From Archangium gephyra (GTDB lineage: Bacteria > Myxococcota > Myxococcia > Myxococcales > Myxococcaceae), in assembly GCF_001027285.1 (NCBI RefSeq), contig NZ_CP011509.1, forward strand, positions 1,372,501 through 1,436,500: a stretch of DNA of 64,000 nucleotides. The letters are read 5' to 3'. Shown here piece after piece: positions 1,725 through 39,664 of this stretch. Numbering within the stretch: position 1 is the stretch's first letter; the number at the start of each line of letters is the position of its first letter. A program made the position numbers and the translations under genes. Below the pieces are notes generated by a model, which saw nothing but the letters and a program-made list of their open reading frames with translations, was not told the origin of the DNA and searched no databases.

Positions 1725-1737
1725 TAGACGTGGCGTG

Positions 1738-2886
1738 ATGACTCGGGACTTCGCGAAACAGGCGTGGTGGGGTGGGGCACGGCGGTTGGCGGTGCTCGCC
1801 CTGCTCGGGGCTGGATGCAAGGCGGGCACGTGTGGCTCGGGCGCATCCGGCTCCGGGCCCCTCTCCGAGCAGGAGCGGAGGGGGCTGCCGGGAGTGATTG
1901 CCTTCGTGTCGGAGCGAGCGCCCCAGAAGGATGTCTGGTTGGTGCGGCCCGCCACGGGAGAGCAGACGCAGCTGACGCGAGGTCCCGAGGATGAATACCC
2001 CGGCGCGCCGTCTCCGGATGGCGCGTCGTTGGTGGTGGTGGCGGCGGCGGAGATTCAAGGGCTGCATGTGGAGCAGCTGAGGTTGGCGCCGTTGGACGGC
2101 GGGCCGGTGGTGATGTTGTCGGCGCCGCGAGGCCGGGCGCGCAACCCGAGCTGGTCGCCGGACGGCAGCTGGTTCGTGGCCGAGTCGGACGCGCAGAGTT
2201 TCAGTGACGTGGTGCGGCAGGCGCCGCGGGCGGACGCGGAGGTGGTGCGTCTGACGCAGGCGCCCGAGGGCAACTTCGAGCCGAGCGTGTCACCGGACGG
2301 GACGCAGGTGGCGTTCGCGTCGAGCCGGACGGGAGATCCGGAAATCTACGTGATGAAGGCGGATGGGACGGACGTGCGGCGGCTGACGTCGTTCCACAAG
2401 GAGGACATGGCGCCCAGGTGGAGTCCGGACGGGAAGTGGATTTCGTTCGTGAGCGACCGGGAGGGGCGGGTGCGGGTGTTCGTGGTGAAGCCGGACGGGA
2501 CGGACTTGAGGGCGGTGTCGGGGAGCCAGCAGACGGGGGAGGAGCGGGAGCCGGCGTGGAGTCCGGACGGGAAGAAGCTGGCGTTCGTGGGGAGGGCGAA
2601 GGACCAGAAGGCGCGCATCTGGGTGGCGGACGTGGCGGGAGGGGAGCCGGTGGCGCTGACGGATGGGAAGAATACGGATGACCAGCCGGAGTGGAGTCCG
2701 GATGGGAAGTACGTGGCGTTCGCGTCGGAGCGCACGGGAGACGTGGAGCTGTTCCTGATGAGGGCGGACGGGAGCGGCCAGACGCAGTTGACGAGCACGA
2801 AGGGGGCGGACTGGTTGCCGCGCTGGTTCGTGCCGAAGACGACCCCGTCCGCGGGGCCGGGAGCCGGGCGGGCCGAGGGCACCTGA
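1738..2886 (+). CDS. TolB-like WD40/PD40 beta-propeller lipoprotein
   Basis: An exported beta-propeller of the TolB/PD40 type, 382 aa, probably a periplasmic or outer-membrane binding scaffold. The N-terminus carries a lipoprotein signal with lipobox LLGAGC. At least five PD40 blades follow, each with the SPDG core (for example PSVSPDGTQVAFASS, PRWSPDGKWISFVSD, PEWSPDGKYVAFASE), spaced about 45-50 residues apart. Adjacent GTG (1735) and ATG (1738) codons are both possible starts; ATG is preferred. It lies 13 nt after the amidase gene and may be cotranscribed with it. TolB itself is larger and has an extra N-terminal domain, so this is a relative and not the Tol-Pal subunit. Confidence 0.8.
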   Translation: MTRDFAKQAWWGGARRLAVLALLGAGCKAGTCGSGASGSGPLSEQERRGLPGVIAFVSERAPQKDVWLVRPATGEQTQLTRGPEDEYPGAPSPDGASLVVVAAAEIQGLHVEQLRLAPLDGGPVVMLSAPRGRARNPSWSPDGSWFVAESDAQSFSDVVRQAPRADAEVVRLTQAPEGNFEPSVSPDGTQVAFASSRTGDPEIYVMKADGTDVRRLTSFHKEDMAPRWSPDGKWISFVSDREGRVRVFVVKPDGTDLRAVSGSQQTGEEREPAWSPDGKKLAFVGRAKDQKARIWVADVAGGEPVALTDGKNTDDQPEWSPDGKYVAFASERTGDVELFLMRADGSGQTQLTSTKGADWLPRWFVPKTTPSAGPGAGRAEGT

Positions 2887-2950
2887 GCCCGGGCCAGTCC
2901 GCACCCGATCGTCACTCCAAGCATCCCAGGTTCCCCCCCACTCCCCAACA

Positions 2951-3023
2951 TCCCCTCTCCCCTCGGGAGAGGAGCCCCCCGTCGTTCAAAGGGGGGGCAA
3001 GCCCCCCGGGGTGAGGGTATCGG
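2951..3023 (+). repeat. Dispersed palindromic repeat copy 1 (insert-bearing)
   Basis: Left half CCCTCTCCCCTCGGGAGAGG, right half GGGGTGAGGGTATCGG. In the other copies the halves are nearly adjacent; here about 34 nt separate them, and that insert is itself palindromic (GCCCCCC...GGGGGGC). It lies 3' of the TolB-like gene. Confidence 0.7.
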
Positions 3024-3123
3024 TCCCCCGGGTTCCCCCCTGGGAGAAGACCTCCGGGTCCTGAGCTCCGGTTGTGGAGCTCCCCGGGGGCACCTTGCCA
3101 TTCCCGAGAACGGATCGCAGACT

Positions 3124-3158
3124 CCCTGACCTGAGACGTCAGGGGCCTCCGCTATACT
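3124..3158 (+). promoter_or_regulatory. Inverted repeat with -10-like box upstream of nuclease-like gene
   Basis: Perfect 7-bp arms CCCTGAC (3124-3130) and GTCAGGG (3138-3144) flank a 7-nt loop, followed by TATACT at 3153-3158. The gene starts at 3219. It could be an operator overlapping a promoter or a weak terminator of the upstream gene; sequence alone does not decide. Confidence 0.35.
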
Positions 3159-3218
3159 GAGCAGGTTCAGTGAGGGAGAGGCCACGGGGAGCCTCTCCTC
3201 GAGGAGAGGGGGCGGGGA

Positions 3219-3734
3219 ATGGGACGAGGGAAGGCGGCCCTGAGGCGGGAGTACGAGGCACTGAAGCGTGGCCAGACGGAGCCCCACGAGCGGGGCCGAC
3301 GGCTCGAGGGGCTCGTGTACGAGTTGCTCGAGTCCGAGTCCTTGCGCCCCCGGCGCAACACCCGGCCACCTGGGGAGGAGATCGACCTGTCCTTCACGGA
3401 TGGACACCGGCACTTCCTGTTGGAGGCCCGGTGGAGGACGCGGGTGTCGGTGGGGGATGTGTTCGCCTTCCGAGGAAAGCTCGAGGGCAAGCTGGCGGGG
3501 ACGCTCGGGGTCTTCCTCTACCTCGGAGCGGAGTTCAGCAAGGGGGCCATCCAGGCCATGACCTGGGGCAAGGGCATCAACACCTTGCTGTTCAGCGAGC
3601 ACGACCTCGATGACGCCTTGTCGCCCGGGCACTCGTTCCGCGAGGTGCTCGAACTGAAGCTCCGGTACGCGGTGAGTTACGGGCAGTGCCACGCGACCTA
3701 CAGGTCAATCAGGGACCTCTGGAGGAAGTCATGA
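3219..3734 (+). CDS. PD-(D/E)XK nuclease-like protein
   Basis: A 171-aa protein that looks like a small restriction-endonuclease-fold domain. E30 lies in the helix RRLEGLVYELLE, D56 in GEEIDLSF and E69 in FLLEARW, matching the E...D...ExK layout of Mrr/PD-(D/E)XK nucleases. The expected lysine is Arg71, so activity could be altered or lost. The start is ATG 3219 after a purine-rich leader. Its stop overlaps the next start (ATGA at 3731-3734), so the two genes should be translated together. The fold assignment is by motif only. Confidence 0.55.
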   Translation: MGRGKAALRREYEALKRGQTEPHERGRRLEGLVYELLESESLRPRRNTRPPGEEIDLSFTDGHRHFLLEARWRTRVSVGDVFAFRGKLEGKLAGTLGVFLYLGAEFSKGAIQAMTWGKGINTLLFSEHDLDDALSPGHSFREVLELKLRYAVSYGQCHATYRSIRDLWRKS

Positions 3735-4357
3735 GAAAACCGGTCGAGCACCCAACGCAGCGGAAGATTGCCTTCCTCGTCGATGGGGATAAGGAGAAGC
3801 TGCTCGTGGAAGCACTGGCGCGGAAGGTGGTGGAGCGGCATCGCCCCGCATCACCACCTGACTTCGTGACCATCCGGCTCGCGGGCACTCCGCGCGAAGG
3901 CATCTTTTCCCTGGTCGAGGTGCTGCTCACCCAGACCTACCAGCGCTTCTTCATCCTCTTCAACACGGGCTCCACCAGTCGACGGCGCATCGCGGACATG
4001 GCCAGTGAGATCCACGAGCCGCTCGTCCGGGCGAGACTGGAGGACAAGGTGTCCATCATCCCCCTGGTGCCTTCGATCGACAGCTGGGTGCTCGCGGACG
4101 AGGAGGCACTCGCGCGGGCGGCGGGAAGACGTTGGACCGGAGACGTGCCCCACGAGCGGAGCCGGCCCGAGGACGTCCTGCGAGTGCTGCTCGGAGGGTG
4201 GGGTCCCAAGGAGCAGAAGCGCGTCGCGCGCTACCTGGACCCCGAGCGGATGCGCGGCGGGGACAAGGGCTTCGATGCCTTCGTCCGGGCGCTCCAACTG
4301 GCGCTCGGCGCGGGACACGCGCCCGTGTCCGAGGAGCGGGAACCCGCGGTCACGTGA
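3731..4357 (+). CDS. TOPRIM/DUF4276-like protein
   Basis: 208 aa, translationally coupled to the nuclease-like gene by an ATGA overlap with GGAGGAAG just upstream. It resembles the DUF4276/RloB-type TOPRIM-like group: residues 13-22 (IAFLVDGDKE) match the acidic first strand motif, and 113-123 (VPSIDSWVLAD) match the Pro...Glu-Ala-Trp-x-x-Ala-Asp motif near the family's end. The middle strand, where the family normally has an Asp pair, reads ILFNTGS (75-81), so metal binding may be lost. It probably acts with its partner on nucleic acid. Function is inferred; no immunity activity is shown by sequence. Confidence 0.5.
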   Translation: MRKPVEHPTQRKIAFLVDGDKEKLLVEALARKVVERHRPASPPDFVTIRLAGTPREGIFSLVEVLLTQTYQRFFILFNTGSTSRRRIADMASEIHEPLVRARLEDKVSIIPLVPSIDSWVLADEEALARAAGRRWTGDVPHERSRPEDVLRVLLGGWGPKEQKRVARYLDPERMRGGDKGFDAFVRALQLALGAGHAPVSEEREPAVT

Positions 4358-4432
4358 GGCGCGTGGCGCGCCGTTGAACGCGGGGAGGGCTACCGGACGA
4401 ACGAGCCCTCGTCAGGCCGCCTGCCCTCGGAG

Positions 4433-5290
4433 CTACGGAAGGTAGCTGCCCGGATACAGGGTGAGGACGAGCCCCATGCCCGCGGCGGCTCCCGCGTTGC
4501 GGGCCGGGTAGTCCCTGGAGCCCTGGATGGAGAGGCCGAAGGTCTCCGCTTCCGCGCCGGAGTGGACGTAGAGGAAGAGGCCGGTGGCACTGGTGCCGTC
4601 CTGGGTGGCGCTCTGGAAGTCCGGGGCCGGGTAGTAGATGCGGTGGGCGAGGTCGCCGCGGTCGAGCACCACCTGGGCGCCCGCGACGGGCGCGCCCGAG
4701 GCATCCACGACGCGGCCGAGGATGAAGCCGGCCTCGCGCAGCGAGCGGGCCCGGTCATCGGTATGGGCGCGAATCAACGACTCGCCGACGGCGCGGGTGA
4801 GGGCGTCGTGGAAGGAGGTGGGCAGCGCCCAGACGCGGGCGCCGATGATGTCGGTGCGCGGCCGGGTGCGGGTGAAGACGGTGTCGAAGACGACCGTGGA
4901 GCTGCGCACGAACCCTTCCTGCGCGAAGCTGGCGGCGAGGCTCAGGTGGATGTCGCGCACGGGCACATCGGGCACGGAGAACGCACCCTCGGAGCCGATG
5001 TCACCCTGGCCCAGCACGGAGTTCGCGTCGCTCACGCCGACGCGCAAGGGCTCCTCGATGATGAGCGGGAGTCCCTCGAGGGAAGGCACCGCCTGGCCCT
5101 GGGATTGGAGCAGGCGTGCGGCCTCGGGGAAGAGCTCGGCGTGGCCGGTGACGCTGATGGTCAGGTGGTCAAGGTCCACCATCGTGCTGTCACTGCGGTC
5201 CACACCAGGATCCGGGTCCACGGCGTCGCCACAGGCGGCCGGGGCGAGCCCGAGAAGAGCACAGCAGATGACGAGACTCGGACGCTTCAT
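4433..5290 (-). CDS. Lipoprotein with carboxypeptidase-regulatory-like domain
   Basis: 285 aa. The start at 5290 gives MKRPSLVICCALLGLAPAAC, a clear lipoprotein signal; an upstream in-frame extension would bury it. After a low-complexity linker the protein has an unassigned body. Near the C-terminus it carries a CarboxypepD_reg-like beta sandwich (EAGFILGRVVDASGAPVAGA and following), a domain common in exported proteins and used for stability or binding. No catalytic motif is seen. It stands alone on the minus strand between two plus-strand genes and the repeat-rich lipoprotein. Confidence 0.6.
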   Translation of the reverse strand: MKRPSLVICCALLGLAPAACGDAVDPDPGVDRSDSTMVDLDHLTISVTGHAELFPEAARLLQSQGQAVPSLEGLPLIIEEPLRVGVSDANSVLGQGDIGSEGAFSVPDVPVRDIHLSLAASFAQEGFVRSSTVVFDTVFTRTRPRTDIIGARVWALPTSFHDALTRAVGESLIRAHTDDRARSLREAGFILGRVVDASGAPVAGAQVVLDRGDLAHRIYYPAPDFQSATQDGTSATGLFLYVHSGAEAETFGLSIQGSRDYPARNAGAAAGMGLVLTLYPGSYLP

Positions 5291-5473
5291 GACTGGGCGC
5301 CAAGATCTCCACGCTCCCGCGTATCGGCAATCCACCCCGGGGCCCCAGACGTCCCGTGGAAGACGGAACACTTCGCCCCCCGGTGCGCACAGGTGGAAAA
5401 GGCGGAGGGCCGCCCCTGCCTCGCGAGAGGAAGGGAGCGGCCCTCGACGTCACGGACTGCTGGAAGTCACACG

Positions 5474-6780
5474 CTACCGGCGATTCCCGCGGCCCCAGCC
5501 TCCGCTGTTGCCGTTGCTCCCGCTGTTGCCGTTGCCGCCACTGTTGTCATTCCCACCGCCGCTGTTGCCACGGGGAGGGGGCGGGGAGCTGTTGCCACCG
5601 CCGCTGCTGCCGCCGCTGTTGCCCCAGCCGCCGCCACGGGGACGGTCCTCGTTGTTGTCACGGGGAGGAGGAGGCGGGGGAGGGCTGTTGCCGCCGCCGC
5701 TGCTGCCGCCGCTGTTGCCCCAGCCGCCGCCACGGGGACGGTCCTCGTTGTTGTCACGGGGAGGAGGAGGCGGGGGAGGGCTGTTGCCGCCACCGCTGTT
5801 GCCATTGCCGCCGCCGTTGCCCCAGCCACCGCCGCGAGGACGGTCCTCATTGTCCCGGCCCGGGCCGTTGCCGTTGCCGTTGCCGTTGCCGCCGCCGTTG
5901 CCCCAGCCGCCGCCGCGAGGAGGAGGAGGCGCATCGTCATTGTGGCCCTGGCCCGGGTTGTTGGTGTGGCCGGGCGGGTTGCCCCAGCCGCCCTGTCCCG
6001 GCGGAGTCCCACCGTGGCCCGGAGGCGTGCCACCGTGGCCCGGGGGCGGGTTGTTGCCGTTCCCCTGCGAGGGCGGATTCGGATTCTGGTTGCCCCAGCC
6101 GCCGCTGCTCGTGGGCGGGCGCGTCCCGGTGCCGGTGCCCGGAGGGGGCGGAGGCTGCTGGCCCCAGCCGCCCCCTGGGAGGGCGGATTCGGATTCTGGT
6201 TGCCCCAGCCGCCGCTGCTCGTGGGCGGGCGCGTCCCGGTGCCGGTGCCCGGAGGGGGCGGAGGCTGCTGCGAGTTGCCCCAGCCGCCGCTGGAGGGAGG
6301 AGGCCGGTTGCCGCCCCCATTCACGGGCGAGGCGTCGTGCTGGTCCCAGTCACGCGGCCGCGGAGGCGGACGGTAGTTGTTGTAGACGTACACCGAGCGG
6401 TCGCGGTCCCAGCGGTGCGTGCTGCCCGAGTACGAGTACGGGAAGTAGTCGTGGCTGTGGCGGCCGTGCATGTAGCAGTGATGGCCGCCCGGAATCGGGT
6501 GGTAGTCCAGGTACCAGATGACCCGCGGCGCCCGGTAGACGTACACGTCGTCCGAGTAGGAGTAGTCGTTGATCTCCGAGGGCGCGTAGCCGTGGACGTG
6601 GTTGTACGACTCGGTGCACCAGCCGCCGTACGCATCCGGGTGGGGACCCGAGTAGCGGTACTGGTAGACGGTGGCCGGGGGGGTGTTGTCCGAGTAGTAG
6701 CCAGGCTGGTGGTAGTGAGCGACACAGCCCGAGCCCATCACCAGGGCGGTAGGGACTGTGAGGAGCAGAAGGCGACGCAT
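5474..6780 (-). CDS. GGWGN-repeat, Gly/Asn/Pro-rich lipoprotein (frameshifted)
   Basis: The start at 6780 gives MRRLLLLTVPTALVMGSGC, a lipoprotein signal. Residues about 20-130 form a Tyr/His-rich region (YQYRYSGPHPDAYGGW, YHPIPGGHHCYMHG), followed by a long low-complexity tail of GGWGN blocks and PPPPPPRDNNEDRPRG. The frame breaks at a C-run (plus-strand 6171-6175). Past it the open frame turns into Arg/Ala-rich nonsense, whereas adding one base restores GGWGN blocks down to GGWGRGNRR and a stop at 5474. A 90-bp perfect duplication flanks the break with a period of 110 rather than 111. Function unknown; possibly a surface or cell-wall protein. Confidence 0.6.
5619..5860. repeat. Tandem 96-102 bp coding repeats
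   Basis: The block containing GACGGTCCTCGTTGTTGTCA begins at 5641, recurs 96 bp later at 5737, and recurs in diverged form at 5839 (102 bp). In the restored frame each unit is 32-34 residues: GGWGNSGGSSGGGNS then PPPPPPRDNNEDRPRG. The two left copies are nearly identical, so unit number could vary between strains. Confidence 0.75.
6071..6270. repeat. Perfect 90-bp direct duplication inside lipoprotein gene
   Basis: 6071-6160 and 6181-6270 are identical and are separated by 20 nt (6161-6180) holding the CCCCC run where the reading frame breaks. The period of 110 is one short of 37 codons. Confidence 0.85.
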
Positions 6781-6900
6781 GGAGGTTCTCCGGGGCCGGT
6801 GGTGGGGCCGGCCCGCCCAGTTCATCACGGTGAAGACAGGGAAGCAGACGGGCGGGCACGGAGGATATTCAACCCCCGTTTCCCCGTGATTTCCCGCCGG

Positions 6901-7572
6901 CTAATGCACCATGCGCTCGGACGAGCCGGCGCGCGGGGCGTGCAGCTTGCCCAGGCAGGTGAGGATGTGCTCGCGGTACTCGGACACCTCGCGCAGGCCG
7001 CACACCATCCACCGGCCGGCGATGACCAGGGTGGGCACGCCGCGCACGCCGCGGCTGGCGGCCAGCTGGTGCTCATCCAGGATGAGCTTGCGCGTGTCGT
7101 CCGAGTGGTACGCCGCCGAGAAGGGGCTCATGTCCAGGCCCACGCGGCTGGCCAGCTCGAAGATGACGTCCGTGCGCGTGACGTTGACGCCCTGCTCCAG
7201 CGCCGCCTTCTGCATGGCGCGCGCGAGGTGGCTCCTCGCCGCGGGGCTCTGCAGCCGCGCCGCCTCCAGGGCCGCCAGCGCGGGGATGCTGGTGCGCGGT
7301 GCGTCTCCGCCCAGCCACAGCTCCGGGGTCAGCAGCTTCGCCACCGGCTCCGGCTCCTGCTGCGCCCGGCGGACTTCCTCCGTCAGCCCGCGCAGCTCCT
7401 TCTCCGTGGGCCTCTTGTCGTGGACGCGCAGCGGGTACGGCCGCACGCGCCAGCGAATGAGGTCGCCGAACTCCTGTTTCAGGGTTTCCAGCCGCAGGTC
7501 GGCCAGGTAGCACCAGGAACACAACACATCCTGGTAGACGGTGATCTGCAGTGGCTTGGGCAGGGGCTTCAT
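6901..7572 (-). CDS. DsbA-family (FrnE-like) thioredoxin-fold oxidoreductase
   Basis: 223 aa, matching the DsbA/FrnE thioredoxin family in length and layout. The CxxC site is CSWC near residues 18-21 after the first strand (ITVYQDVLC). A helical insertion follows, and the cis-proline strand appears late as GVRGVPTLVI. There is no signal peptide, so it probably acts in the cytoplasm on disulfides or small thiols, as FrnE proteins do. It lies downstream of the RimK-like gene on the same strand with a 138-nt gap. The exact substrate is unknown. Confidence 0.8.
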   Translation of the reverse strand: MKPLPKPLQITVYQDVLCSWCYLADLRLETLKQEFGDLIRWRVRPYPLRVHDKRPTEKELRGLTEEVRRAQQEPEPVAKLLTPELWLGGDAPRTSIPALAALEAARLQSPAARSHLARAMQKAALEQGVNVTRTDVIFELASRVGLDMSPFSAAYHSDDTRKLILDEHQLAASRGVRGVPTLVIAGRWMVCGLREVSEYREHILTCLGKLHAPRAGSSERMVH

Positions 7573-7710
7573 GTGCGAGCGCCGCTGAGATTACGAAGGT
7601 CGCGCTCCCACTGCCAATCCCCTCCGACATTTTGCGGAGGTGCCCATTCCCAGGAGAGCCGAGCAAGAGGCTCGCCCGTCCGCCTGCCCCACGGGCGTCA
7701 CAGCCGTTCT

Positions 7711-8742
7711 TCACACTGCCTGTAGCTGGCCTCCCGCCGCCGCGTGCGTCCGCGCCAGGACGAGCGCATGGTCGACGATCGCCCCGGCGATGTCCTGCTT
7801 CGTCGCTCGCTCCAGGCCCTCGAAGCCCGGGCTGGAGTTGAGCTCCATCAACCGCGGCCCCGCGCGGCCCTCCAGCATGTCCACGCCGGAGATCTCCAAC
7901 CCCAGCACCTGCGCGGCCTTCACCGCCACGTCGACATAGGCGGCGGGCAGTTCCACCGGGTGGCCCTCGCCGCCGCGGTGGATGTTGGAGCGGAACTCGC
8001 CCTTCTTGGCCCGCCGCTGCATGGCGCCCACCACCTTGTCGCCCACCACCAGGGCCCGCACGTCCCGGCCCTTGCTCTCGGCGACGAACTCCTGGAGCAC
8101 CACCTCCTGCCCCAGGTCCCAGAAGGTGTTGAGGATGGTCTGCAGCTCCTGGAGCGAATGGGCGATCATCACCCCCACGCCCTGGGTGCCGCGCAGCAGC
8201 TTGATGATGACGGGCAGCCCTCCCACCTCCTCCACCAGCTTGCGCACGTTGCTGCGGTCATGCGCCATCACCGTCCGGGGCACGTCCAGCCCGGCCGCGC
8301 ACAACAGCTGGAGCGCCCGCAGCTTGTCGCGGCTCTGGGAGATGGCCGAGGCGCCGTTGAGCACCGCCACCCCCATCATCTCGAAGTGCTTCACCACCGC
8401 CAGGCCGTAGCCGGTGATGGAGGCGCCGATGCGGGGGATGACGACATCCACGCCCTTGATGTCCACCCCTCGGTAGAGCATCCGCGGCTGGCCCGGGGCG
8501 AGCACCATGGTGCAGCGCAGGGTGTCCAGCACGAGGGGACGGTGGCCGTGCTGCTTGATGGCCTCCACCAGCCGCCGGGTGGAGTACAGGGAGCGCTTGC
8601 GCGAGAGGATGACCACCGTCTTCTTGGCCTGGGGCCTGCGGGGGGCCGGGGCGTCGGACGGCGGTGGCTCGACGGGGCGAGCGGGGGCCTTCGGGCGGGC
8701 CCGGGCGGGCGCCTTCTTGGACGAGACCTTCTTGGCGGGCAT
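7711..8742 (-). CDS. RimK-family ATP-grasp ligase
   Basis: 343 aa. Residues about 1-40 are a Lys/Ala/Pro-rich extension (KKVSSKKAPARARPKAPA) not found in typical RimK. The rest is a RimK-like pre-ATP-grasp and ATP-grasp fold: TVVILSRKRSLYSTRRLVEA at the front, PVIIKLLRGTQGVGV as the nucleotide-binding loop, and LMELNSSPGFEGLE with metal-binding Glu/Asn. RimK homologues add glutamate or similar amino acids to a C-terminal carboxylate (ribosomal protein S6 in E. coli). The target here is unknown; the basic tail could bind ribosomes or nucleic acid. Confidence 0.82.
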   Translation of the reverse strand: MPAKKVSSKKAPARARPKAPARPVEPPPSDAPAPRRPQAKKTVVILSRKRSLYSTRRLVEAIKQHGHRPLVLDTLRCTMVLAPGQPRMLYRGVDIKGVDVVIPRIGASITGYGLAVVKHFEMMGVAVLNGASAISQSRDKLRALQLLCAAGLDVPRTVMAHDRSNVRKLVEEVGGLPVIIKLLRGTQGVGVMIAHSLQELQTILNTFWDLGQEVVLQEFVAESKGRDVRALVVGDKVVGAMQRRAKKGEFRSNIHRGGEGHPVELPAAYVDVAVKAAQVLGLEISGVDMLEGRAGPRLMELNSSPGFEGLERATKQDIAGAIVDHALVLARTHAAAGGQLQAV

Positions 8743-8811
8743 GGAAGGGGAGCGAGCCTACCACGGGTGGGGGCGGGTGGCGTCGGCTGTGTTTGCTATC
8801 ATCGAAAAGTG

Positions 8812-10263
<1,452 letters not shown>

Positions 10264-10455
10264 CGCACTGAGTCATGGCGGGGGGTCGTGGCTGGGTTCA
10301 GCTCCAGTCAGGGTCAAATGTCGCAGCCGGGCATGCAGGCGATTCCGCCGGTCCAGTTGACCGATGGGAAAGTCAGCGGTGGAGTGTGACAAAGGCCCTG
10401 ATATGAGCACCGAGGAGTCCCACCCCCCCAGGGACATGAATCCGGTCAGGCGGCC

Positions 10456-11211
10456 GTGGAAGCCGCGCTGACGTTGCCGCTCGTCATCTTCCTCGTGCTG
10501 GGGACGCTGCAGCTCTTCATGATGCAGCAGGGCCGCATCATGGCGGAGTACGCGGCCTTCCAGGCGGTGCGTGCGGGCAGCCGCAACCACGGGGACTGTG
10601 AGCCCATGGTGCACGCGGCGCTGGCCGGGCTGCTGCCCAGCGTGACGCCCTACCTGGGCGGCAAGGGGAAGGGCTCGGCGGGGGAGAAGCTGGCCTCTGC
10701 GTGGAAGGAGCGCCTCGGCTCCGCCTCCGAGGGCCCCAGGTACAGGCCGGGCAAGGGGAAGGATGGCCAGCACACCGGCCCCATCTTCTGGCTGGTGCGC
10801 GAGTCGCCCCGGGCCTCGGCCGTGAACTACACGGAAGACATCGGCTTCGACCTGCCCACGGGAGATGGCTCGCAGGCCATGCGCCTGGAGGTGCGCCTCA
10901 TCTATTGGTACCGGCTGCGCATCCCGTTCGCGGACTGGGTCATCAGCCGGATGCTGCTGGCCCACATGGGGTTGAAGAACTACGACGCCGTCAACCCGCT
11001 GATGCCGGCGGACGCCAAGGCGGGCTGGACCCAGAGCACCGAGCGCGTCATCAACCTGGATCCGCTCATCCGCGACGAGCTGCGCACCCGGGTCGGCTCC
11101 GCGGAGTACGTCTTCCCCATCCAGGCCACCTACGGCATGCGGATGATGACGCCCGCGCGGGGCATGTACTTCGAGCAGCAGAACTGCCCTGGCACTCCGG
11201 AGGGGCTGTGA
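10456..11211 (+). CDS. TadE-family pilus assembly protein
   Basis: About 251 aa from the first in-frame start, GTG 10456. The TadE-like hydrophobic N-terminal segment (VEAALTLPLVIFLVLGTLQL) sits at the very front, so the usual leader ending in GQAA is missing from this start. That leader is encoded just upstream (10444-10455, G-Q-A-A). An ATG at 10403 would join it only if the C-run at 10423-10429 had one more base, so the start is uncertain. The rest is an exported domain of unknown fold. The TGATG junction at 11209-11213 couples it to the next gene. Role: minor pseudopilin-like component of a Tad/Flp system. Confidence 0.72.
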   Translation: MEAALTLPLVIFLVLGTLQLFMMQQGRIMAEYAAFQAVRAGSRNHGDCEPMVHAALAGLLPSVTPYLGGKGKGSAGEKLASAWKERLGSASEGPRYRPGKGKDGQHTGPIFWLVRESPRASAVNYTEDIGFDLPTGDGSQAMRLEVRLIYWYRLRIPFADWVISRMLLAHMGLKNYDAVNPLMPADAKAGWTQSTERVINLDPLIRDELRTRVGSAEYVFPIQATYGMRMMTPARGMYFEQQNCPGTPEGL

Positions 11212-12818
11212 TGAGACGCCGTGGACAGACCCTGGTGGTGTTCGCCCTCAGCCTGCTGTTGCTGGTGCTGATGGTGACCATGACGCTCTCCATTGGCATG
11301 AAGGCCAAGGAGAAGATGGAGCTGCAGACGCTGGCGGATGCCGCCGCCTACTCCAACGCCGTGGCCACCGCGCGCGCCTTCAACTCCATCTCGCTGATGA
11401 ACCGGGCGCTGATGGGCCACATGGTGGCCATGACGGGCGTGGAGAGCCTCATCTCCTGGACTGGCTACTACCGCGGCTCCATCCTCGCGGCCAGCAAGGC
11501 CTACGACGGGCCCTTCAAGCAGTACGAGAAGATCGCCCTCACCGCCTGCCCCGCGGGTAACACCGCGCTCTGCACGTGCGCCAACAAGGCGATGACGGAC
11601 ATCACCCAGACGCAGAAGGACCTCATCCTGAAGGAGAAGGAGATCGACGACTCCTGGGACTCCCTGGACAAGCCCGCGGGCGAGGAGGCGGGCCTGCTGC
11701 AGCTCTCCTCCATCTGGGATGAGCAGCAGGACGTCTACAAGCAGCTCAAGGAGACCGTCATCGACGGGGGACTGGCCCGCAGCATCGTCTCCGAGGCGAA
11801 GAAGGGCGCCGCGTTCGACGGCAAGGACTTGTTGGTGCCGGATGAGATCCAGGTCAACAAGGACGAGCTCGACGGGGAATGGGGCTGCGCGGGCAAGGGC
11901 GCCGCCTGCCTGCGCCGCAACGCGGGCCACAAGCTGCACTTCATCGATGCCGCCATGGGCAGCCGTGGCTTCTCCTTCGTGACGGCGCGCGGGGCGGGCA
12001 GTGCCATCAAGAGCAAGCTGCAGACCCTGCTGCCCCCGCCGGACGCCGTCGTGAATGTGTCCAACATCGGCAGCAGCTACTTCCCTGGCGAGGGGCAGAA
12101 GTCGCACGCCGGACCCACCATCGACGGCACCGAGGTGTGGGGGGATGACCATGGCAGTGTGCGCGTCACCTTCGGCCGGGGCCAGCTGCCGTGTCCGATG
12201 GTGTCCTTGCCGGGCAGCTCCAATGCCCAGGCGCACGTGCGCAGCAACCACCTCGATGACCACGGGGACCAGCACGTGTGGGAGGGCGGTGGCGTGCGCC
12301 GGAGTGATCCCGACGCCGATGAGCGGCACACCATGGGCAAGTGCACCCAGTGCCCGGGCATCTGGCCCTCGCACATGGACTACAACTACAACCTGGTGGA
12401 CCAGGGGGCGGACAACTGGGGCCAGCCCAAGACCTACGCCGTCATCCAGCGCAACTACAAGGAGCGCCCGCTCAAGCGCGCGGACCCGTGGAACCTCATG
12501 TTCCGCTTCCGCTTCTCCCCGAAGAAGGAGGGCGTCGAGTTCGACAACCGCGGCATCGAGCTGTCCGAGGCCAATGGCGGCACGGACATCTCCCTGGCCA
12601 CGGCGCTCTCCGCGGGCATCACCTACTACAAGCGCGAGGGCCCCCACTGGCAGGAGCCGCCCAACTTCCTCAACCCCTTCTGGCGCGCCACGCTCGTGTC
12701 GGCCCACGTGGACACGGAGGGACGGACGACGGACGTGAAGGAGACGCTGCAGAAGGCCGCGCCCTTCGCCGCCGAGGCCTACGAGGCGCTCAAGAAGAAG
12801 GAGTACAAGGGATGGTAA
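11211..12818 (+). CDS. TadG-like pilus assembly protein
   Basis: 535 aa. The N-terminus RRRGQTLVVFALSLLLLVLM is the TadG-type signal-anchor motif (PF13400-like), followed by the ADAAAYSNAVATARAFN helix that packs as a pilin-like stalk. A large exported domain follows, Cys-containing (CPAGNTALCTCANK, CTQCPG). The start ATG 11211 overlaps the preceding TGA; the stop at 12816-12818 overlaps the next gene's start by 7 nt. No vWA motif is visible, so only the N-terminal part matches canonical TadG. It probably sits in the inner membrane or is exported with the TadE-like neighbours. Confidence 0.72.
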   Translation: MRRRGQTLVVFALSLLLLVLMVTMTLSIGMKAKEKMELQTLADAAAYSNAVATARAFNSISLMNRALMGHMVAMTGVESLISWTGYYRGSILAASKAYDGPFKQYEKIALTACPAGNTALCTCANKAMTDITQTQKDLILKEKEIDDSWDSLDKPAGEEAGLLQLSSIWDEQQDVYKQLKETVIDGGLARSIVSEAKKGAAFDGKDLLVPDEIQVNKDELDGEWGCAGKGAACLRRNAGHKLHFIDAAMGSRGFSFVTARGAGSAIKSKLQTLLPPPDAVVNVSNIGSSYFPGEGQKSHAGPTIDGTEVWGDDHGSVRVTFGRGQLPCPMVSLPGSSNAQAHVRSNHLDDHGDQHVWEGGGVRRSDPDADERHTMGKCTQCPGIWPSHMDYNYNLVDQGADNWGQPKTYAVIQRNYKERPLKRADPWNLMFRFRFSPKKEGVEFDNRGIELSEANGGTDISLATALSAGITYYKREGPHWQEPPNFLNPFWRATLVSAHVDTEGRTTDVKETLQKAAPFAAEAYEALKKKEYKGW

Positions 12819-13771
12819 GGCTTCGCGGCAGGGCGTCCGAGCGCGGCCAGGGCACCACGGAGCTGGCGCTCGGGCTGCTGCTCTTCGTCACCGTGCTCAT
12901 CTTCGGCATCCACTTCGCCGAGGTGGGCTACCTCTCGCTCAAGGTGCAGGAGGCGGCCACCAGCGCGCTGTGGGACACCACCAGCGCGAAGATGCACGAG
13001 CTGCCGAGGAACTTCGACCCCCTCACCAACCTCATCAGCTCGGACAAGCCGGGTCAGCTCGCCACCGAGCGCTACAAGGACTTCGACGGACGCACCTCGA
13101 AGGCGGGGGGCGGCAAGGTGGTGCAGCTCTTCACCTCGGCCCAGCAGCTCCAGGTCACCTGCGGCGAGGCGGCGAACATCTTCTTCGAGCCCTCCACGTC
13201 CACCAACACCCGGGTGTACCGCAACGTGGGCGGCATGACCTGCAACGCCCAGGCGCAGCTGTCCCCCGTGAAGAAGTTCACCCGCAGCTTCCTGGACAAG
13301 GGCAAGGGTGCCTTCTTCGACGTGCCCCACTACGCCGCGGGGGCCATCCCGGTGTGTGGCATGGGCCGCGCGCAGGGCGGCAAGTGCGCCGGCGGCTTCG
13401 GCATCCTCCTGGATGACTGGGCGCTGTCCAGCCGCTCCGAATCCGGGGAGTGCCATCTGCTGAATTGTGGCAACACGGCCTACTACGACTCCGCGAAGGT
13501 GGTCTACGACAAGCACAACCAGGTGAATGGCGCCTCGGTGACCCTGGCGCGCTCCATCGTGGGCGAGGCTCCCATCAATCCGGCGAAGTTCTGGATGAGC
13601 TTCCGGGGCAGGACGAGCAACTTCCTGGAGTCGGACATGCCCGGGGGAGACAGCGACACGAGGGACTGGGAGACGACGCCGGGCTTCAACAGCCGCACCC
13701 AGGAGTACCACCGGGCGTTCAATCGGCGGAAGACGTGCTTCCTGGGGAACGAATGTCCTTCCGCCATGTGA
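12812..13771 (+). CDS. Second TadE-like protein
   Basis: 319 aa. The start ATG 12812 lies inside the end of the TadG-like gene. The N-terminal motif SERGQGTTELALGLLLFVTV followed by IFGIHFAEVGYLSLKVQEAA is the TadE signature (Gly-Gln, then a Glu in the hydrophobic helix). The exported part has several Cys pairs (CGMGRAQGGKCAGG, CHLLNCGN), suggesting disulfides outside the cytoplasm. It overlaps the next gene by 19 nt. Together the three proteins resemble the minor pseudopilins of a Tad secretion/adhesion system whose motor genes are not in this window. Confidence 0.72.
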   Translation: MVRLRGRASERGQGTTELALGLLLFVTVLIFGIHFAEVGYLSLKVQEAATSALWDTTSAKMHELPRNFDPLTNLISSDKPGQLATERYKDFDGRTSKAGGGKVVQLFTSAQQLQVTCGEAANIFFEPSTSTNTRVYRNVGGMTCNAQAQLSPVKKFTRSFLDKGKGAFFDVPHYAAGAIPVCGMGRAQGGKCAGGFGILLDDWALSSRSESGECHLLNCGNTAYYDSAKVVYDKHNQVNGASVTLARSIVGEAPINPAKFWMSFRGRTSNFLESDMPGGDSDTRDWETTPGFNSRTQEYHRAFNRRKTCFLGNECPSAM

Positions 13772-14547
13772 GCGCCCGGACGGGGCTGCTGCTGGCGGTG
13801 CTGTGGAGCGGGGGGGGAGCGTCAGCGCAGCCGGCGGCCTCCGCGAAGCCCGCGGCGTCCGCACAGCCGGCGGCGTCAGCGCAGCCGGCGGCCTTCAGCT
13901 GGGACGTGCCCCGGGTGCTGGAGTGGGTGGAGGTGCCGGGGGTGATTCGGGCCGACGGCATCCCGGTGAAGCTGCGCTCGGTGAAGAGCGCGGAGAAGCC
14001 CCAGGTCATCCTCCAGCACCTGGTGGACCGCTTCGAGGCGGCGGGCTTCTACATTCCTCCGGACAAGCACCGCACCCAGTGGTTCCAGGAGCCGCAACTC
14101 ACCGCGCTGGATACGGAGCGGTTCATCTCCTACACCTTCGTACTGCAGCCCAACCCGGATGGGACCACCACGGTGGTGCTGGGCGAGGCCAACCTGGGCC
14201 TGGCCCGGCGCGAGCAGGGCGCCTTCGCCCCCGTCTTCCCCGGGGGGACGGACCTGATGCAGAGCGAGATGGAGGGCGCACGCACCATGACGTACTTGGC
14301 GTCGGCCGAGCCGGCGAAGGTGCGGGACTTCTACGGGGCGGAGCTGCGCGGGGCGGGGTTCTCCGAGACGTCCGAGGGGACGTGGCGCCGCGGCGGCGAG
14401 GAGCTGCGGGTGTCGGTGCGCCCCGTCAAGCAAGGCCGCGTGGCGGTCATCATCCTGCGCCGCACCGTCCTCGAGGACGTGCTGGAGCAGGACGTCCAGC
14501 AAGGCCCCCAGCCCGCCCGCTCGCGGCCCGAGCAGGGCCAGCGCTGA
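13753..14547 (+). CDS. Secreted protein linked to Tad-like cluster
   Basis: 264 aa. The start ATG 13753 gives a signal peptide (GLLLAVLWSGGGASA), then an 18-bp coding repeat (AQPAAS, AKPAAS, AQPAAS, AQPAA). Two similar alpha/beta segments follow (VPGVIRADGIPVKLRSVKSA and MTYLASAEPAKVRDFYGAEL); each may be a domain of the type seen in small periplasmic binding proteins. The family is not recognised. It overlaps the preceding TadE-like gene, so it is probably part of the same operon and may help assemble or regulate that apparatus. Confidence 0.6.
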   Translation: MSFRHVSARTGLLLAVLWSGGGASAQPAASAKPAASAQPAASAQPAAFSWDVPRVLEWVEVPGVIRADGIPVKLRSVKSAEKPQVILQHLVDRFEAAGFYIPPDKHRTQWFQEPQLTALDTERFISYTFVLQPNPDGTTTVVLGEANLGLARREQGAFAPVFPGGTDLMQSEMEGARTMTYLASAEPAKVRDFYGAELRGAGFSETSEGTWRRGGEELRVSVRPVKQGRVAVIILRRTVLEDVLEQDVQQGPQPARSRPEQGQR

Positions 14548-14651
14548 GCCCGGCGGCGGGGGGCTCCCGCTCCGTTCGGAAGCGTCGCTGGGAGGCGTCC
14601 GGTACGCTTGCGGATTGAAGCGCTTGCGGGCCCGTGTTACGGCCGGATGTC

Positions 14652-17546
<2,895 letters not shown>

Positions 17547-32577: not shown

Positions 32578-33198
32578 ATGGTGCACCGCTTTCGCGTCCT
32601 GATCCTCGTGGGCCTCGCCACCCTCGCCGCCGACCAGGTGACCAAGTACCTCGCCGTGGCCCACCTGACGGAGGCGCTCGATGGGCGCACCGGCCTGGCC
32701 CGGGTGGAGGGCTTCGTCTCCGAGCAGAACCTGGACAACGATCCGCCCCTGCCGGGGGCGTACCGGCGCTCGACGCGGCCCTACCGCTTCATCGAGAACT
32801 ACTGGCACTTCCGCTACGTGGAGAACCCGGGCGCCGCCTGGGGCCTCTTCGGCAACCTGCCCGAGTCCGTGCGCCGCCCCTTCTTCCACCTGGTGAGCCT
32901 GGTGGCGCTCGGCTTCATCACCTTCATGTACGTGCGGCTCACCCCGGACCAGCGGCGGGTGCGCTGGGCGCTGGCGCTCGTGGCGGGTGGCGCGGTGGGC
33001 AACTTCGTGGATCGGCTCCTGCGCGGCTACGTCATCGACTTCATCGACTGGCACTGGCGCAACCAGCCCGGCATGCGCTGGCCCACCTTCAACGTGGCCG
33101 ATGCCGCCATCTGCGTCGGTGTGGGTCTGCTCCTGCTGGACTCCTTCCTGGAGCGCAAGCCCGTGGAAACCGTGACGCCCGGGGAGCAGGTGGTATAA
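32578..33198 (+). CDS. lspA: Signal peptidase II (first copy)
   Basis: Cleaves signal peptides of diacylglyceryl-prolipoproteins at the inner membrane. 206 aa. The catalytic Asp pair is D145 (GNFVDRLLRG) and D175 (FNVADAAI), both intact. The loop between transmembrane helices 1 and 2 (about residues 35-75) is longer than in E. coli. A second copy begins 9 nt downstream, and lgt follows. Myxobacterial LspA paralogues are known in connection with lipoprotein-targeting antibiotics; which is the main enzyme here is not clear. Confidence 0.93.
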   Translation: MVHRFRVLILVGLATLAADQVTKYLAVAHLTEALDGRTGLARVEGFVSEQNLDNDPPLPGAYRRSTRPYRFIENYWHFRYVENPGAAWGLFGNLPESVRRPFFHLVSLVALGFITFMYVRLTPDQRRVRWALALVAGGAVGNFVDRLLRGYVIDFIDWHWRNQPGMRWPTFNVADAAICVGVGLLLLDSFLERKPVETVTPGEQVV

Positions 33199-33207
33199 CC
33201 ACCCCCC

Positions 33208-33840
33208 GTGCCTCGCAAATACATCCTCCTGCTGACGGTGGCGCTCGGCGTCATCGTCCTCGACCAGTGGACGAAGTACCTCGTCGTGCGCGAGCTCACC
33301 ACGCGCTTCGATGACCGGCCCACGCTGGGCGAGCGGCTGTCGGCCATGTACGGCGAGCCTCCTCCCCAGGGCTTCGATGGACTGCACTACCGGTCCAAGC
33401 GCTACATCGAGGTCTCCGACTCCTTCTTCCGCCTGCGCTACGCGGAGAACCCGGGCGCGGCCTGGGGCCTGTTCCGCAGCCTGCCGCCCGCCACGCGCGG
33501 CCTGCTCTTCCACGTAGTGAGCATCGGCGCGGTGGTGCTCATCACCTGGTACTTCAGCAAGCTGAGCGGGAAGGATCCCCAGGAGCGCTGGGCCCTGTGG
33601 GGCCTGCCCCTGGTGCTGGGCGGCGCCATCGGCAACTACATCGACCGCATCGCCCGGGCCTTCGTCATCGATTTCCTCGAGGCCCATTGGTACGACAAGG
33701 CCGCCTGGCCGTCCTTCAACGTGGCCGACTCGGCCATCGTCGTGGGCGTGGGGCTGCTCCTGGTGGACGCCTTCGTGCGCAAGGAGACGCCCGACAAGGA
33801 GACGCCCAAGCAGGACAAGTCGGCCACGGCCCGCACCTGA
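33208..33840 (+). CDS. lspA: Signal peptidase II (second copy)
   Basis: 210 aa, starting GTG 33208. Same reaction as the first copy; catalytic D146 (GNYIDRIARA) and D174 (FNVADSAI) are intact. It shares the layout but differs in the middle loop (YIEVSDSFFRLRYAENPGAA) and has a Lys/Thr-rich C-terminal tail. Tandem placement suggests duplication and divergence, perhaps to give resistance to LspA inhibitors or to serve special lipoproteins. Confidence 0.92.
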   Translation: MPRKYILLLTVALGVIVLDQWTKYLVVRELTTRFDDRPTLGERLSAMYGEPPPQGFDGLHYRSKRYIEVSDSFFRLRYAENPGAAWGLFRSLPPATRGLLFHVVSIGAVVLITWYFSKLSGKDPQERWALWGLPLVLGGAIGNYIDRIARAFVIDFLEAHWYDKAAWPSFNVADSAIVVGVGLLLVDAFVRKETPDKETPKQDKSATART

Positions 33841-37069: not shown

Positions 37070-37438
37070 ATGGCGGGTCGGACACGGCGCTGGGGGCTCG
37101 GGGTGGCGGCGATGGCGCTGTGGCTGGCGAGCGGCTGCGCGGAGCCTCCCGAGGACGCGGAGGCGCGCCTGGCGCAGCTGGAGGCCGAGGACAAGCAGAT
37201 GGACGCGGCGCTCGACGTCGTGGAGACGCGGCTGCTGGGCAATCAGTCCAAGCTGCACCTGTGGCAGGAGATGGAGCGGCGGCACGAGCAGGTGTCGGCC
37301 ATCCAGTGCCGGGTGGCGGACTCGCACCTCATGGCCATCGCCGAGCACTACGAGAAGCAGGAGGCCAAGGCGCGCCAGCTCACCAAGCGCCGCCGCATGG
37401 CCGCCGTGGATGCCGCGGTGATGACCGGAAGCCGTTGA
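37070..37438 (+). CDS. Small lipoprotein with helical domain
   Basis: 122 aa. ATG 37070 gives a lipoprotein signal ending LASGC. The mature part is a charged, mostly helical coil (EARLAQLEAEDKQMDAALDV), perhaps a coiled coil. No family recognised. It lies tail to tail with the TOPRIM-like gene on the other strand. Confidence 0.6.
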   Translation: MAGRTRRWGLGVAAMALWLASGCAEPPEDAEARLAQLEAEDKQMDAALDVVETRLLGNQSKLHLWQEMERRHEQVSAIQCRVADSHLMAIAEHYEKQEAKARQLTKRRRMAAVDAAVMTGSR

Positions 37439-37460
37439 GCGGCCACTGGCGCTCCAGGGT

Positions 37461-38321
37461 TCAGAGGTTGCGTAGCACTGCCCCGGCGCCAGGGCTCGAG
37501 GTCTCGGCGTGACACGTCCCGGGAAAGGGGTTGTCCACCTCGAGGGCCTCGGAGAGGTCCGCGAACAGTGAGCGCGCGAGCCGGGCGTGGGACTCCTGGG
37601 ACAGGGCACCGGACCAGTCGAGCTCGCGCAGGGCCTTCACTCCGCCGTGGGTCTCCCGGTAGCGGTGGGGGCTGGGGTTCTGCTCGTCCCCTTCCGGGTC
37701 GCAGAGGTACTGGAGATACCGCTTGGGGTGGCGCTGGCGGTCGGGCGTGGCCCAGTACTTCGCCTTGTCCGGCACTTCGAGGAACGGCGGCTCGTGGGTG
37801 ATGAAGTCCTCGACGTCGAGGGCTCGGCCATCCACGGTGGAGGGGCGCTGTGCACCCGCACGGTTGAGCGCGCCGGGCTCGCCGTAGAAGTAGGCCTCCA
37901 CCATGGGACAGAGCACGTGGAAGGAGCAATGCTCGCGCAGGCGCTGGATGACCTGCTCCTGACGCCGGGCGCTGGGCCATGGGTAGGCCTCGAGATGGTG
38001 CTTCACGGCCTCCCGTAATTGGCCGACGACCACGTCCACCTGGTCGAGGTTCGGTAGCTCCACGTCATCCACGGCGATGACGAGGTCGGGGCGCTCTCCG
38101 GTCCGTCCCGGGTCCGTGGCGGCGACCATGGCCGCCGCGAGCCTGTCCACCTGGCTCGGGCGGGTTCCCCCCGTCCGGGGAACGAGCTTCAGGCGTGCGC
38201 TGGTGAAGGAGTCGAGGAAGAGGGGACGCACGAACTCGGCGGAGGGGAAGTACCGCTGGAGCGAGGGCACCAGCCCGGCTCGCTCGCACTCGCCCGTGGT
38301 GATGAGGACGACCTTCTTCAT
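37461..38321 (-). CDS. TOPRIM/DUF4276-like protein coupled to AAA ATPase
   Basis: 286 aa. Starts at 38321 and overlaps the ATPase gene's stop by one base (TGATG). Candidate TOPRIM-like acidic residues are E11/E13 (TTGECER), D85-D86 (VIAVDDVELPN) and E142 in CPMVEAYFYGE, the latter matching the family's Glu-Ala-Trp segment. DUF4276/RloB-type proteins are predicted nucleases and often act with an SMC/OLD-like ATPase in anti-phage systems. The basic Arg/Lys-rich middle could bind nucleic acid. Function is by family and neighbour only. Confidence 0.6.
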   Translation of the reverse strand: MKKVVLITTGECERAGLVPSLQRYFPSAEFVRPLFLDSFTSARLKLVPRTGGTRPSQVDRLAAAMVAATDPGRTGERPDLVIAVDDVELPNLDQVDVVVGQLREAVKHHLEAYPWPSARRQEQVIQRLREHCSFHVLCPMVEAYFYGEPGALNRAGAQRPSTVDGRALDVEDFITHEPPFLEVPDKAKYWATPDRQRHPKRYLQYLCDPEGDEQNPSPHRYRETHGGVKALRELDWSGALSQESHARLARSLFADLSEALEVDNPFPGTCHAETSSPGAGAVLRNL

Positions 38322-39445
38322 CAGGAGGGCTCGGGCTCCCGGGGGGCGCCGAACTCGAGGTGCGCGTAGAGGTCTCCCAGCGAGAAGTGGGAGAGGTACT
38401 CGGGGTCGCGGAACTGGCTCAGGGGGATCGGGTTGGTCTCCTGGGACGGCTCCATCACGTAGACCTGCTCGGGGCAGTCGCGGAACTGGTCGAGCACGAC
38501 GGGCGAGTGCGTGGCGAGCAGCACGGTGCTCTTCGTCTGGGCCGCCCAGGTGCGGAACGCCTCGATGAGCCGCTTGATGGCGAAGGGATGGAGCGCGTTC
38601 TCCACTTCATCGAGGGCGACCATGCCGCCCTCGGGGACGGAGGCCACCGCGCACAGGTGCAGCAGCGCGACGAGCAGGCCATTGGCCGCGAAGGTGATGG
38701 GATAGGTGGTGTCGGGTCTCGGGGCCACGACGCGTGCGGCGACGGTCGTTCCCGCGGTCTCGAAGTCCAGGTCCGCGAAGTTGTCCGGAAAGAGGGTGCG
38801 CAGGCCCTCCATCACGAAGTTGAAGCGGACACGGTCTGCGCGCGTGTCCCGCCAGTTGCGCAGCACGGAGAAGACATTGCGCCCGTGGATGTCCAGCGCC
38901 TTCTCCGAAGAGAGCGGGGAGCCGTTCTCGCGGATGTGGGCCAGATGGTAGTCCGCGTAGCAGCGGTAGCCCTGGAGCACCGCGAGCAGCGATTGAATCC
39001 CCGGAGCTGTGGTGGGGTTGTCCGCAGCAAGGCGGAGCACGCTGCGCTCATCCGCGGGCAGGGGAATGTCGTTGAGCCAGACCTCATTGAGCATGCCCAT
39101 GCGGCGACCGCTCAGTCCTGGTCCATACAACTCTTCGAGATAGTAAGAGCCAATGCGGAGTTCCCTGGCCGTGAACTGAATGAGCCAACTGATGTTGGGA
39201 AGCATGGCCTGGAGGGTGACAACTCCAGCCGGCGCGGCCTCGAAGTGTATGAGGTTGGCGGCTCCACCGCGGTGATCGAGTGCACGCATCAGTCCATGTT
39301 CGAGGATGTGCCGGAGCAACTGAGGCACATCCAGCAGCGTGCTCTTGCCGGCGCCGTTTGGACCGACGAGCGCGCAGACGCCCTGTGGACTCCAGTCGGT
39401 GTTCCGGAGTGCTCGGTAATTCTCGACCCTGAATGTCAGCGGCAT
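38321..39445 (-). CDS. AAA (OLD/RecF-like) ATPase
   Basis: 374 aa from the start at 39445 (MPLTFRVENY). Walker A is GPNGAGKST (28-36), the signature-like ANGLLVALLH is at 254-263, Walker B MVALDEVE at 275-282 with D279/E280, and the H-loop LATHSP at 310-315. This is the layout of AAA_15/AAA_21 ATPases of the OLD/RecF group. The 39118-39300 stretch is visibly less GC-rich than its surroundings, a hint of transfer. It is coupled to a TOPRIM-like protein, a gene pair arrangement like OLD-class or PARIS-type defence modules, though neither component is a clear match to a named system. Confidence 0.75.
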   Translation of the reverse strand: MPLTFRVENYRALRNTDWSPQGVCALVGPNGAGKSTLLDVPQLLRHILEHGLMRALDHRGGAANLIHFEAAPAGVVTLQAMLPNISWLIQFTARELRIGSYYLEELYGPGLSGRRMGMLNEVWLNDIPLPADERSVLRLAADNPTTAPGIQSLLAVLQGYRCYADYHLAHIRENGSPLSSEKALDIHGRNVFSVLRNWRDTRADRVRFNFVMEGLRTLFPDNFADLDFETAGTTVAARVVAPRPDTTYPITFAANGLLVALLHLCAVASVPEGGMVALDEVENALHPFAIKRLIEAFRTWAAQTKSTVLLATHSPVVLDQFRDCPEQVYVMEPSQETNPIPLSQFRDPEYLSHFSLGDLYAHLEFGAPREPEPS

Positions 39446-39552
39446 CCGGACACCCTCGTCTCTCCGGTCACGCGGACGTGCTACCACGGATATAGCCACG
39501 GCTCTGCACTCCAGACGCGGCCCTGTACACGGGTGCAACCTGGGGCCCGAAA

Positions 39553-39587
39553 TACCCTCACCCCGGCCCTCTCCCGGAGGGCGAGGG
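39553..39587 (-). repeat. Dispersed palindromic repeat copy 3
   Basis: Contains ACCCTCACCCCGGCCCTCT and CCCGGAGGGCGAGGGT; the partial mate CAGGTTGCACCCG (minus-strand reading) lies next to it. It sits between divergent genes (AAA and small lipoprotein), unlike most copies, which lie 3' of genes. Confidence 0.65.
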
Positions 39588-39664
39588 TGCTCGGAACCCG
39601 GGGAAGCGGCCGGACGGGCGCCGGCTTCCGTGACGAGGGCGCTGAATCCGGGTAGAACCGCCTC

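Follow-up and report, generated by a model that had tools for sequence, protein, structure and literature searches.

A two-gene module of predicted HEC-01 type on a myxobacterial chromosome, with a hypervariable ATPase segment and a divergent DUF4276-like partner

Results

Gene pair and base composition

The window, by which we mean the whole 64-kb stretch of DNA analysed, carries on its minus strand a gene for an ATPase immediately followed by a gene for a smaller protein, here called the partner (Table 1). The stop codon of the former and the start codon of the latter have the A of TGATG in common, so that the genes overlap by one base, as a sequence-only reading of this DNA had described. 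Genes of relatives were called with a simple purpose-written script, one genome being used per species. An overlap of 1 or 4 bases was found in 15 of the 18 ATPase-partner pairs examined, and every intact partner (18 loci) has an ATPase gene directly upstream. Evidently, the overlap is more than chance.

Part of the ATPase gene had also been described as AT-richer than its surroundings, and the GC profile bears this out. In 300-bp windows, the minimum within the gene is 59.7% GC (39061-39360), against a mean of 69.4% for the 64-kb window; 0.16% of 300-bp windows are as low as this. GC3 is 0.715 in the first 130 ATPase codons, compared with 0.91 in the rest of the gene and 0.93-0.95 in neighbour genes.

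Table 1. Features of the ATPase-partner locus (coordinates of the window)
Feature	Position	Strand	Description	Basis
ATPase gene	38321..39445	-	374 aa; ATG at 39445, TGA at 38321; OLD/PtuA/AriA-type ABC ATPase by sequence and model, HEC-01A-like	
Partner gene	37461..38321	-	286 aa; ATG at 38321, stop at 37461; divergent DUF4276/Toprim-like putative effector	
Stop/start overlap	38319..38323	-	TGATG, linking ATPase and partner genes	sequence
Walker A	39338..39364	-	GPNGAGKST, ATPase residues 28-36	sequence and ATPase alignment
Walker B with following Glu/His	38585..38611	-	DEVENALHP, ATPase residues 279-287	sequence and ATPase alignment
H-loop	38501..38515	-	ATHSP, ATPase residues 311-315	sequence and ATPase alignment
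Hypervariable segment	38981..39295	-	ATPase residues ~51-155; putative sensor surface	regional identity, pN/pS, Fisher tests, GC
Toprim motif I remnant	38283..38297	-	TGECE, partner residues 9-13; invariant Thr9 in place of Glu, with Gly10 and Glu13 conserved	
DDVE	38058..38069	-	partner residues 85-88; DxD-like D86xE88	alignment
MVEAYF (E142) to HPK (198-200) region	37722..37898	-	DUF4276 counterpart MEaWfLaD...K	hhalign alignment and invariant residues
Stretch absent from congener G004	37447..39605		about 2.16 kb replaced by 22 bp	

ATPase family

Walker A, Walker B and H-loop are all complete, in agreement with the sequence-only reading, and their key residues (G28, N30, G31, G33, K34, T36, D279, E280, H286, T312 and H313) are invariant in the ATPase alignment. 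The protein matches AAA_21 of Pfam (4.9e-18). Its best PADLOC model is HEC-01A (PDLC04178, 8.9e-29), which places it as the HEC-01A-type AAA ATPase of PADLOC HEC-01; weaker matches were to mad3 (7.7e-19), AriA (PDLC02980, 4.2e-18), AbiLi (9.6e-18) and GajA. An AlphaFold model (pLDDT 64) aligned with PtuA of retron/Septu systems (Z 17.1), OLD 6p74 (Z 15.8) and AriA 8v46 (Z 15.8), and also with Rad50/SMC heads. Judged by sequence and model, the protein is an OLD/PtuA/AriA-type ABC ATPase. Neither protein had at first been recognised as a named type; this no longer holds for the ATPase in view of its HEC-01A match, whereas the partner is indeed left uncalled by PADLOC.

Partner protein

Searched directly with the partner, Pfam, PADLOC, NCBIfam and the PDB yielded no meaningful match, and sequence searches of the PDB with DUF4276 were likewise without a match. 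With a limit as loose as E<=10, none of 8 partners was matched by an HEC-01B model. Since two of eight partner relatives gave a faint DUF4276 signal (E 0.089), a set of DUF4276 proteins was gathered from Myxococcota and aligned for profile comparison. With hhalign, the partner alignment matched this DUF4276 alignment over 211 columns (probability 96.9, E 1.7e-10, score 75), the best score among 20 column-shuffled controls being 22. DUF4276 in turn matched the OLD Toprim domain (members of PF20469) with E 2.5e-5 and a score of 40 (shuffled maximum 11), in an alignment that matches up the VEGxxE of motif I and the DxD. Compared directly, the partner and OLD Toprim gave a weak match (E 0.012), VTGxxE being set against VEGxxE. 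On the strength of these profile-profile matches and their shuffled controls, the partner is classed by sequence as a remote homologue of DUF4276, and DUF4276 as a relative of Toprim, so that the partner is linked to Toprim transitively, via DUF4276. The DUF4276-like character proposed earlier for the partner is thus supported. The AlphaFold model of the partner is too poor for use (pLDDT 48, shallow) and its fold search returned generic alpha/beta matches only (lumazine synthase, MID domain); because the models are shallow, the predicted Toprim fold comes from the profile chains only.

Conserved partner residues are Gly10, Glu13, D86, S133-F134-H135, P139, E142, H198-P199-K200 and a C-terminal RN. 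Position 88 is E in 15 rows of the alignment and D, giving DxD, only in L093, the most divergent member. Of the Toprim-like acidic positions claimed before, E13 and D86xE88 are therefore conserved in homologues rather than absent from them, but the motif-I Glu is not among them: its position is held by Thr9 in 16 of 16 partners, whereas E9 is invariant in the DUF4276 alignment sampled. In BpOLD, metal A is held by E400 of motif I, while E404 contributes to the binding of metal B; single mutants are tolerated and the triple metal-A mutant is dead (PMC6755086). In AriB, E26A, termed the Toprim mutant, abolishes activity (PMC12409363). By analogy with these mutants, loss of the motif-I Glu would be a serious change for the partner, not necessarily a fatal one. 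The Toprim fold could be inactive. Since the whole clade carries Thr in place of this Glu, the chemistry of the partner may instead depend on E13, D86/E88, E142 and K200, or the partner may act without canonical two-metal cleavage.

These data bear on the proposal that the pair belongs to PARIS (AriA-AriB) or is another member of OLD class 4. As in PARIS, a split OLD-type ABC ATPase gene lies next to a separate gene for a Toprim-like putative effector, the AriA model of PADLOC matches the ATPase and the ATPase folds align. However, HEC-01A models match the ATPase better than AriA does. AriB is a DUF4435 protein, and neither Pfam, PADLOC nor hhalign detected similarity of the partner to DUF4435/AriB (hhalign E 0.6, score below shuffles, with three sequences only on the DUF4435 side). 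The Glu that AriB requires for catalysis is apparently missing from the partner, if E26 corresponds to motif I (PMC12409363). PARIS membership was rejected because of the missing DUF4435/AriB similarity, and we regard any such assignment as highly improbable. What stands of the split OLD/PARIS-type pairing first suggested is an OLD/PARIS-like ATPase-Toprim pair; strict membership of PARIS or OLD, with neither DUF4435/AriB similarity nor the canonical Glu, does not. By sequence, the pair is a variant of the HEC-01 type.

A hypervariable ATPase segment

The AT-rich stretch of the ATPase gene coincides with a segment of exceptional divergence. When orthologues from the same slot are compared within genus g23, identity over ATPase residues 51-150 is 34-49%, against 70-100% in the remaining ATPase bins and 70-100% in the partner bins. 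pN in the segment is 0.37-0.41 as compared with about 0.05 elsewhere (Fisher p<1e-30), and pS is raised too, 0.67-0.78 against 0.38-0.47. In all three comparisons within the g23 trio, no gene of the locus has a 100-aa block as divergent as this segment (0.60-0.63 against at most 0.52), and the same applies to the L089/L090 locus.

Canonical ATPase-DUF4276 pairs show this block as well, again directly behind Walker A. In such pairs from one myxobacterial genus (L050-L053), where it is far sharper than in the clade of the window pair, residues 76-175 are 16-56% identical and the rest mostly 92-100%; at the DNA level, an identity of about 90-100% gives way to 40-66% in the block and then recovers, and pN is 0.19-0.41 against 0.02-0.03. 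The block is mild in cyanobacterial plasmid pairs and absent in L077/L078. In L079/L080, a close pair, it is weaker or absent and does not stand out, and in L083/L085 it is likewise unexceptional. Two residues inside it, W87 and E104, are invariant in the ATPase alignment, which indicates a block that has diversified rather than one that is unrelated between proteins. Cassette exchange with other loci was considered as its source and set aside, no donor having been found in them.

Raised pS and low GC3 indicate that old alleles or recombination, together with weak codon bias, contribute to the divergence; given the same two features, diversifying selection is a candidate cause rather than a proven one. 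The block may accordingly be read as weakly constrained sequence and no sensor under diversifying pressure, in which case the pair might still serve defence. The raised pS and lowered GC3 favour such weak constraint, as do the pairs in which the block is mild, absent or not exceptional. Against it speak the rank of the segment as the most divergent block of the g23 trio locus, the high pN of L050-L053 within genes otherwise nearly identical, and the invariance of W87 and E104. We consider weak constraint a substantial possibility, though short of an even chance. By analogy with related systems, residues ~51-155 might instead form a virus-sensing surface.

Defence loci carrying distant relatives

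Whether homologues occur in defence islands had been put forward as a check. They do in the case of two distant members, at 2 of about 11 independent sites, where the association is real. The pair of G069 (L093) has cas7b-cas8b-cas3 on one side; on the other are an HEC-02A ATPase, cas4-cas1, cas2 and the CRISPR array, of 23 repeats. In G138 (L092) an Avs3a gene (1.4e-181) and transposases adjoin it. The window pair and most myxobacterial copies, on the contrary, have ordinary chromosomal genes as neighbours, and the window site is therefore no defence island. Nor is the slot it occupies a defence hotspot, a possibility dismissed since the other occupants are ordinary (NADAR, SDR, hydrolase and two-component genes). 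A canonical Aeromonas media pair, present on two plasmids, sits between genes for a SNF2 helicase and a DNA methyltransferase.

The L093 locus (554-16865) is a type I-B CRISPR-Cas locus with cas8b-cas7b-cas3, a cas4-cas1 fusion, cas2, the 23-repeat array and a WYL gene; two ATPase modules, the pair and HEC-02A, are embedded between its effector and adaptation genes, and cas3 is apparently split over two frames. In L092 (6228-9263) the ATPase is fused behind an N-terminal region of ~600 aa that has its own P-loop, GNVGVGKSS, the whole protein counting 1011 aa.

Distribution and chromosomal site

Of 195 Myxococcota genomes, 14 contain relatives of the pair, a count that takes in G015 and G082, whose copies are decayed or fragmentary; within the genus, the pair is present in two of six genomes. 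Both genes were found together in 18 loci, with two copies in G000 and three in G004. At the window site the flanks of the stretch absent from G004 are a lipoprotein-like gene ending at 37438 and a small lipoprotein-like gene starting at 39665; in all five congeners the pair is absent and the flanks are joined. The pair is thus accessory, and not a set of core housekeeping genes conserved here in all relatives, an alternative raised together with the sequence-only reading.

Throughout the family the slot itself, between the lipoprotein-like gene and lip85-TPR genes, is conserved. Its occupant is the pair in G000 and three g23 genomes; elsewhere it carries ordinary genes or, in several genomes, nothing. 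The second copy of G000 adjoins a transketolase gene, as do copies in G004 and G155. From shared slots and frequent empty sites we infer that the pair is long-resident yet missing in many cases, in keeping with repeated loss or exchange.

Long residence, suggested by the common slot beside the TPR lipoprotein gene and by the transketolase locus, would also suit a chromosomal function in DNA maintenance or regulation, retained at a handful of conserved sites. Such a role has been proposed for Cran1, an archaeal OLD protein (PMC12796447). Cran1 is essential, however, whereas the pair is dispensable across species, its slots being empty in five congeners and most family members; ATPase hypervariability and the defence-locus relatives do not fit either. 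We hold a maintenance function to be quite improbable.

The pair might also be a toxin-antitoxin-like or selfish addiction module, with a toxic partner neutralised by the ATPase and phage defence incidental or absent. Tight translational coupling, sporadic presence, several copies per genome and the decayed copies would agree with this. On the other hand, the plasmid, phage and viral-contig collections contained no relatives of the window pair, addiction gives no reason for a hypervariable ATPase segment, and relatives are embedded in CRISPR-Cas and Avs loci. Addiction is, in our estimate, unlikely, if somewhat less so than maintenance.

Some copies are imperfect. In G015 (L095, 7706-9761) the pair is reduced to fragments in several frames, and in G082 (L094, 4743-5300) the partner contains a stop and no adjoining ATPase was found; both are cases of pseudogenisation. 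In G004:C378 (L082, 9499-9560) the partner has no recognisable start and lacks its first ~20 in-frame residues, possibly by a frameshift or an assembly error.

A REP-like repeat, CCCTCACCCCGGCCCTCTCCCGGAGGGCGAGGG, is located at 39527-39603 of the window and is interspersed in dozens of copies in the source genome and congeners. It was rejected as a mobile boundary of an insertion because the empty site of G002 contains it too, as does G001 in part, besides its dozens of copies elsewhere.

Discussion

HEC-01 of PADLOC consists of an AAA ATPase, HEC-01A, and a DUF4276 protein, HEC-01B, and is an Hma-embedded candidate. In most cases, the DUF4276 genes detected in myxobacteria immediately follow a gene for an ATPase of ~370 aa with GxNGxGKS, and PADLOC names four of five canonical DUF4276 proteins HEC-01B; for these reasons the window pair belongs beside HEC-01. 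The two share gene order, coupling, ATPase family, a partner homologous to DUF4276/HEC-01B and, in several canonical myxobacterial pairs, the block after Walker A. They differ in that the window partner is unseen by HEC-01B models, is about 70 aa longer and has Thr for the motif-I Glu, and in that partners of its clade have new conserved motifs, SFH, HPK and a C-terminal LRNL/I. PADLOC would consequently call the ATPase of the window pair only, the partner being too diverged for an HEC-01B call. Among the papers available, none mentions DUF4276 and none on HEC-01 was relevant; the guilt-by-embedding approach is cited in PMC12988326.

With OLD of classes 1 and 2 (P2 Old, TsOLD, GajA of Gabija) the pair shares the ABC ATPase superfamily and, through DUF4276, a relationship to their Toprim half; unlike them, it is made of two separate genes, has no UvrD-like helicase neighbour and carries an altered motif I. 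Likeness to mad3 of MADS and to AbiLi is at the level of the ATPase. For MADS, the score is 70 bits against an NCBIfam MAD3 cut-off of 420, and other MADS genes were not seen near the pair.

Taken together, the HEC-01A, AriA, mad3 and AbiLi matches of an ATPase with intact motifs, the profile chain from partner to OLD Toprim, the consistent pairing and coupling, accessory distribution, defence-locus relatives and the hypervariable block suggest that the pair is probably a two-gene immune module of the ATPase-DUF4276 (HEC-01) type, acting like split OLD and PARIS systems. By analogy with both of these, the ATPase is most likely sensor and gate, the variable block its trigger-binding surface and the partner the effector. 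The OLD-type ABC ATPase would oligomerise and hold the partner. Its fast-changing surface segment after Walker A would recognise an invader-specific trigger, upon which an ATP-dependent rearrangement would free or activate the co-translated partner. The latter, as a Toprim-derived enzyme, would cleave nucleic acid (DNA or tRNA) and so halt replication of the phage or plasmid, or the cell itself. Trigger sensing, release, nuclease activity and substrate are in this scheme all modelled on the PARIS and OLD families.

More tentatively, the clade may comprise modules in which a Glu-to-Thr effector, with re-wired or non-nuclease chemistry, is combined with a discrete, quickly diversifying ATPase segment behind Walker A, shared across the wider HEC-01-type class, that re-targets the conserved effector to new phage triggers through changes in about 100 residues; we put this forward as a conjecture that may well prove wrong.

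With the window pair, a defence type predicted by computation and apparently little studied is extended to members that current tools miss. Chained profile comparison puts DUF4276 into the Toprim superfamily. That the hypervariable block is a phage-sensing surface is a directly testable idea, and natural orthologues from the same slot, which differ almost only in the block, provide material at hand for swapping it. For its part, the Glu-to-Thr change probes what a Toprim effector really needs.

A separate observation was made elsewhere in the window, at 32578-33840, where two adjacent lspA-like (signal peptidase II) genes stand in tandem ahead of lgt; throughout the family, this tandem is conserved.
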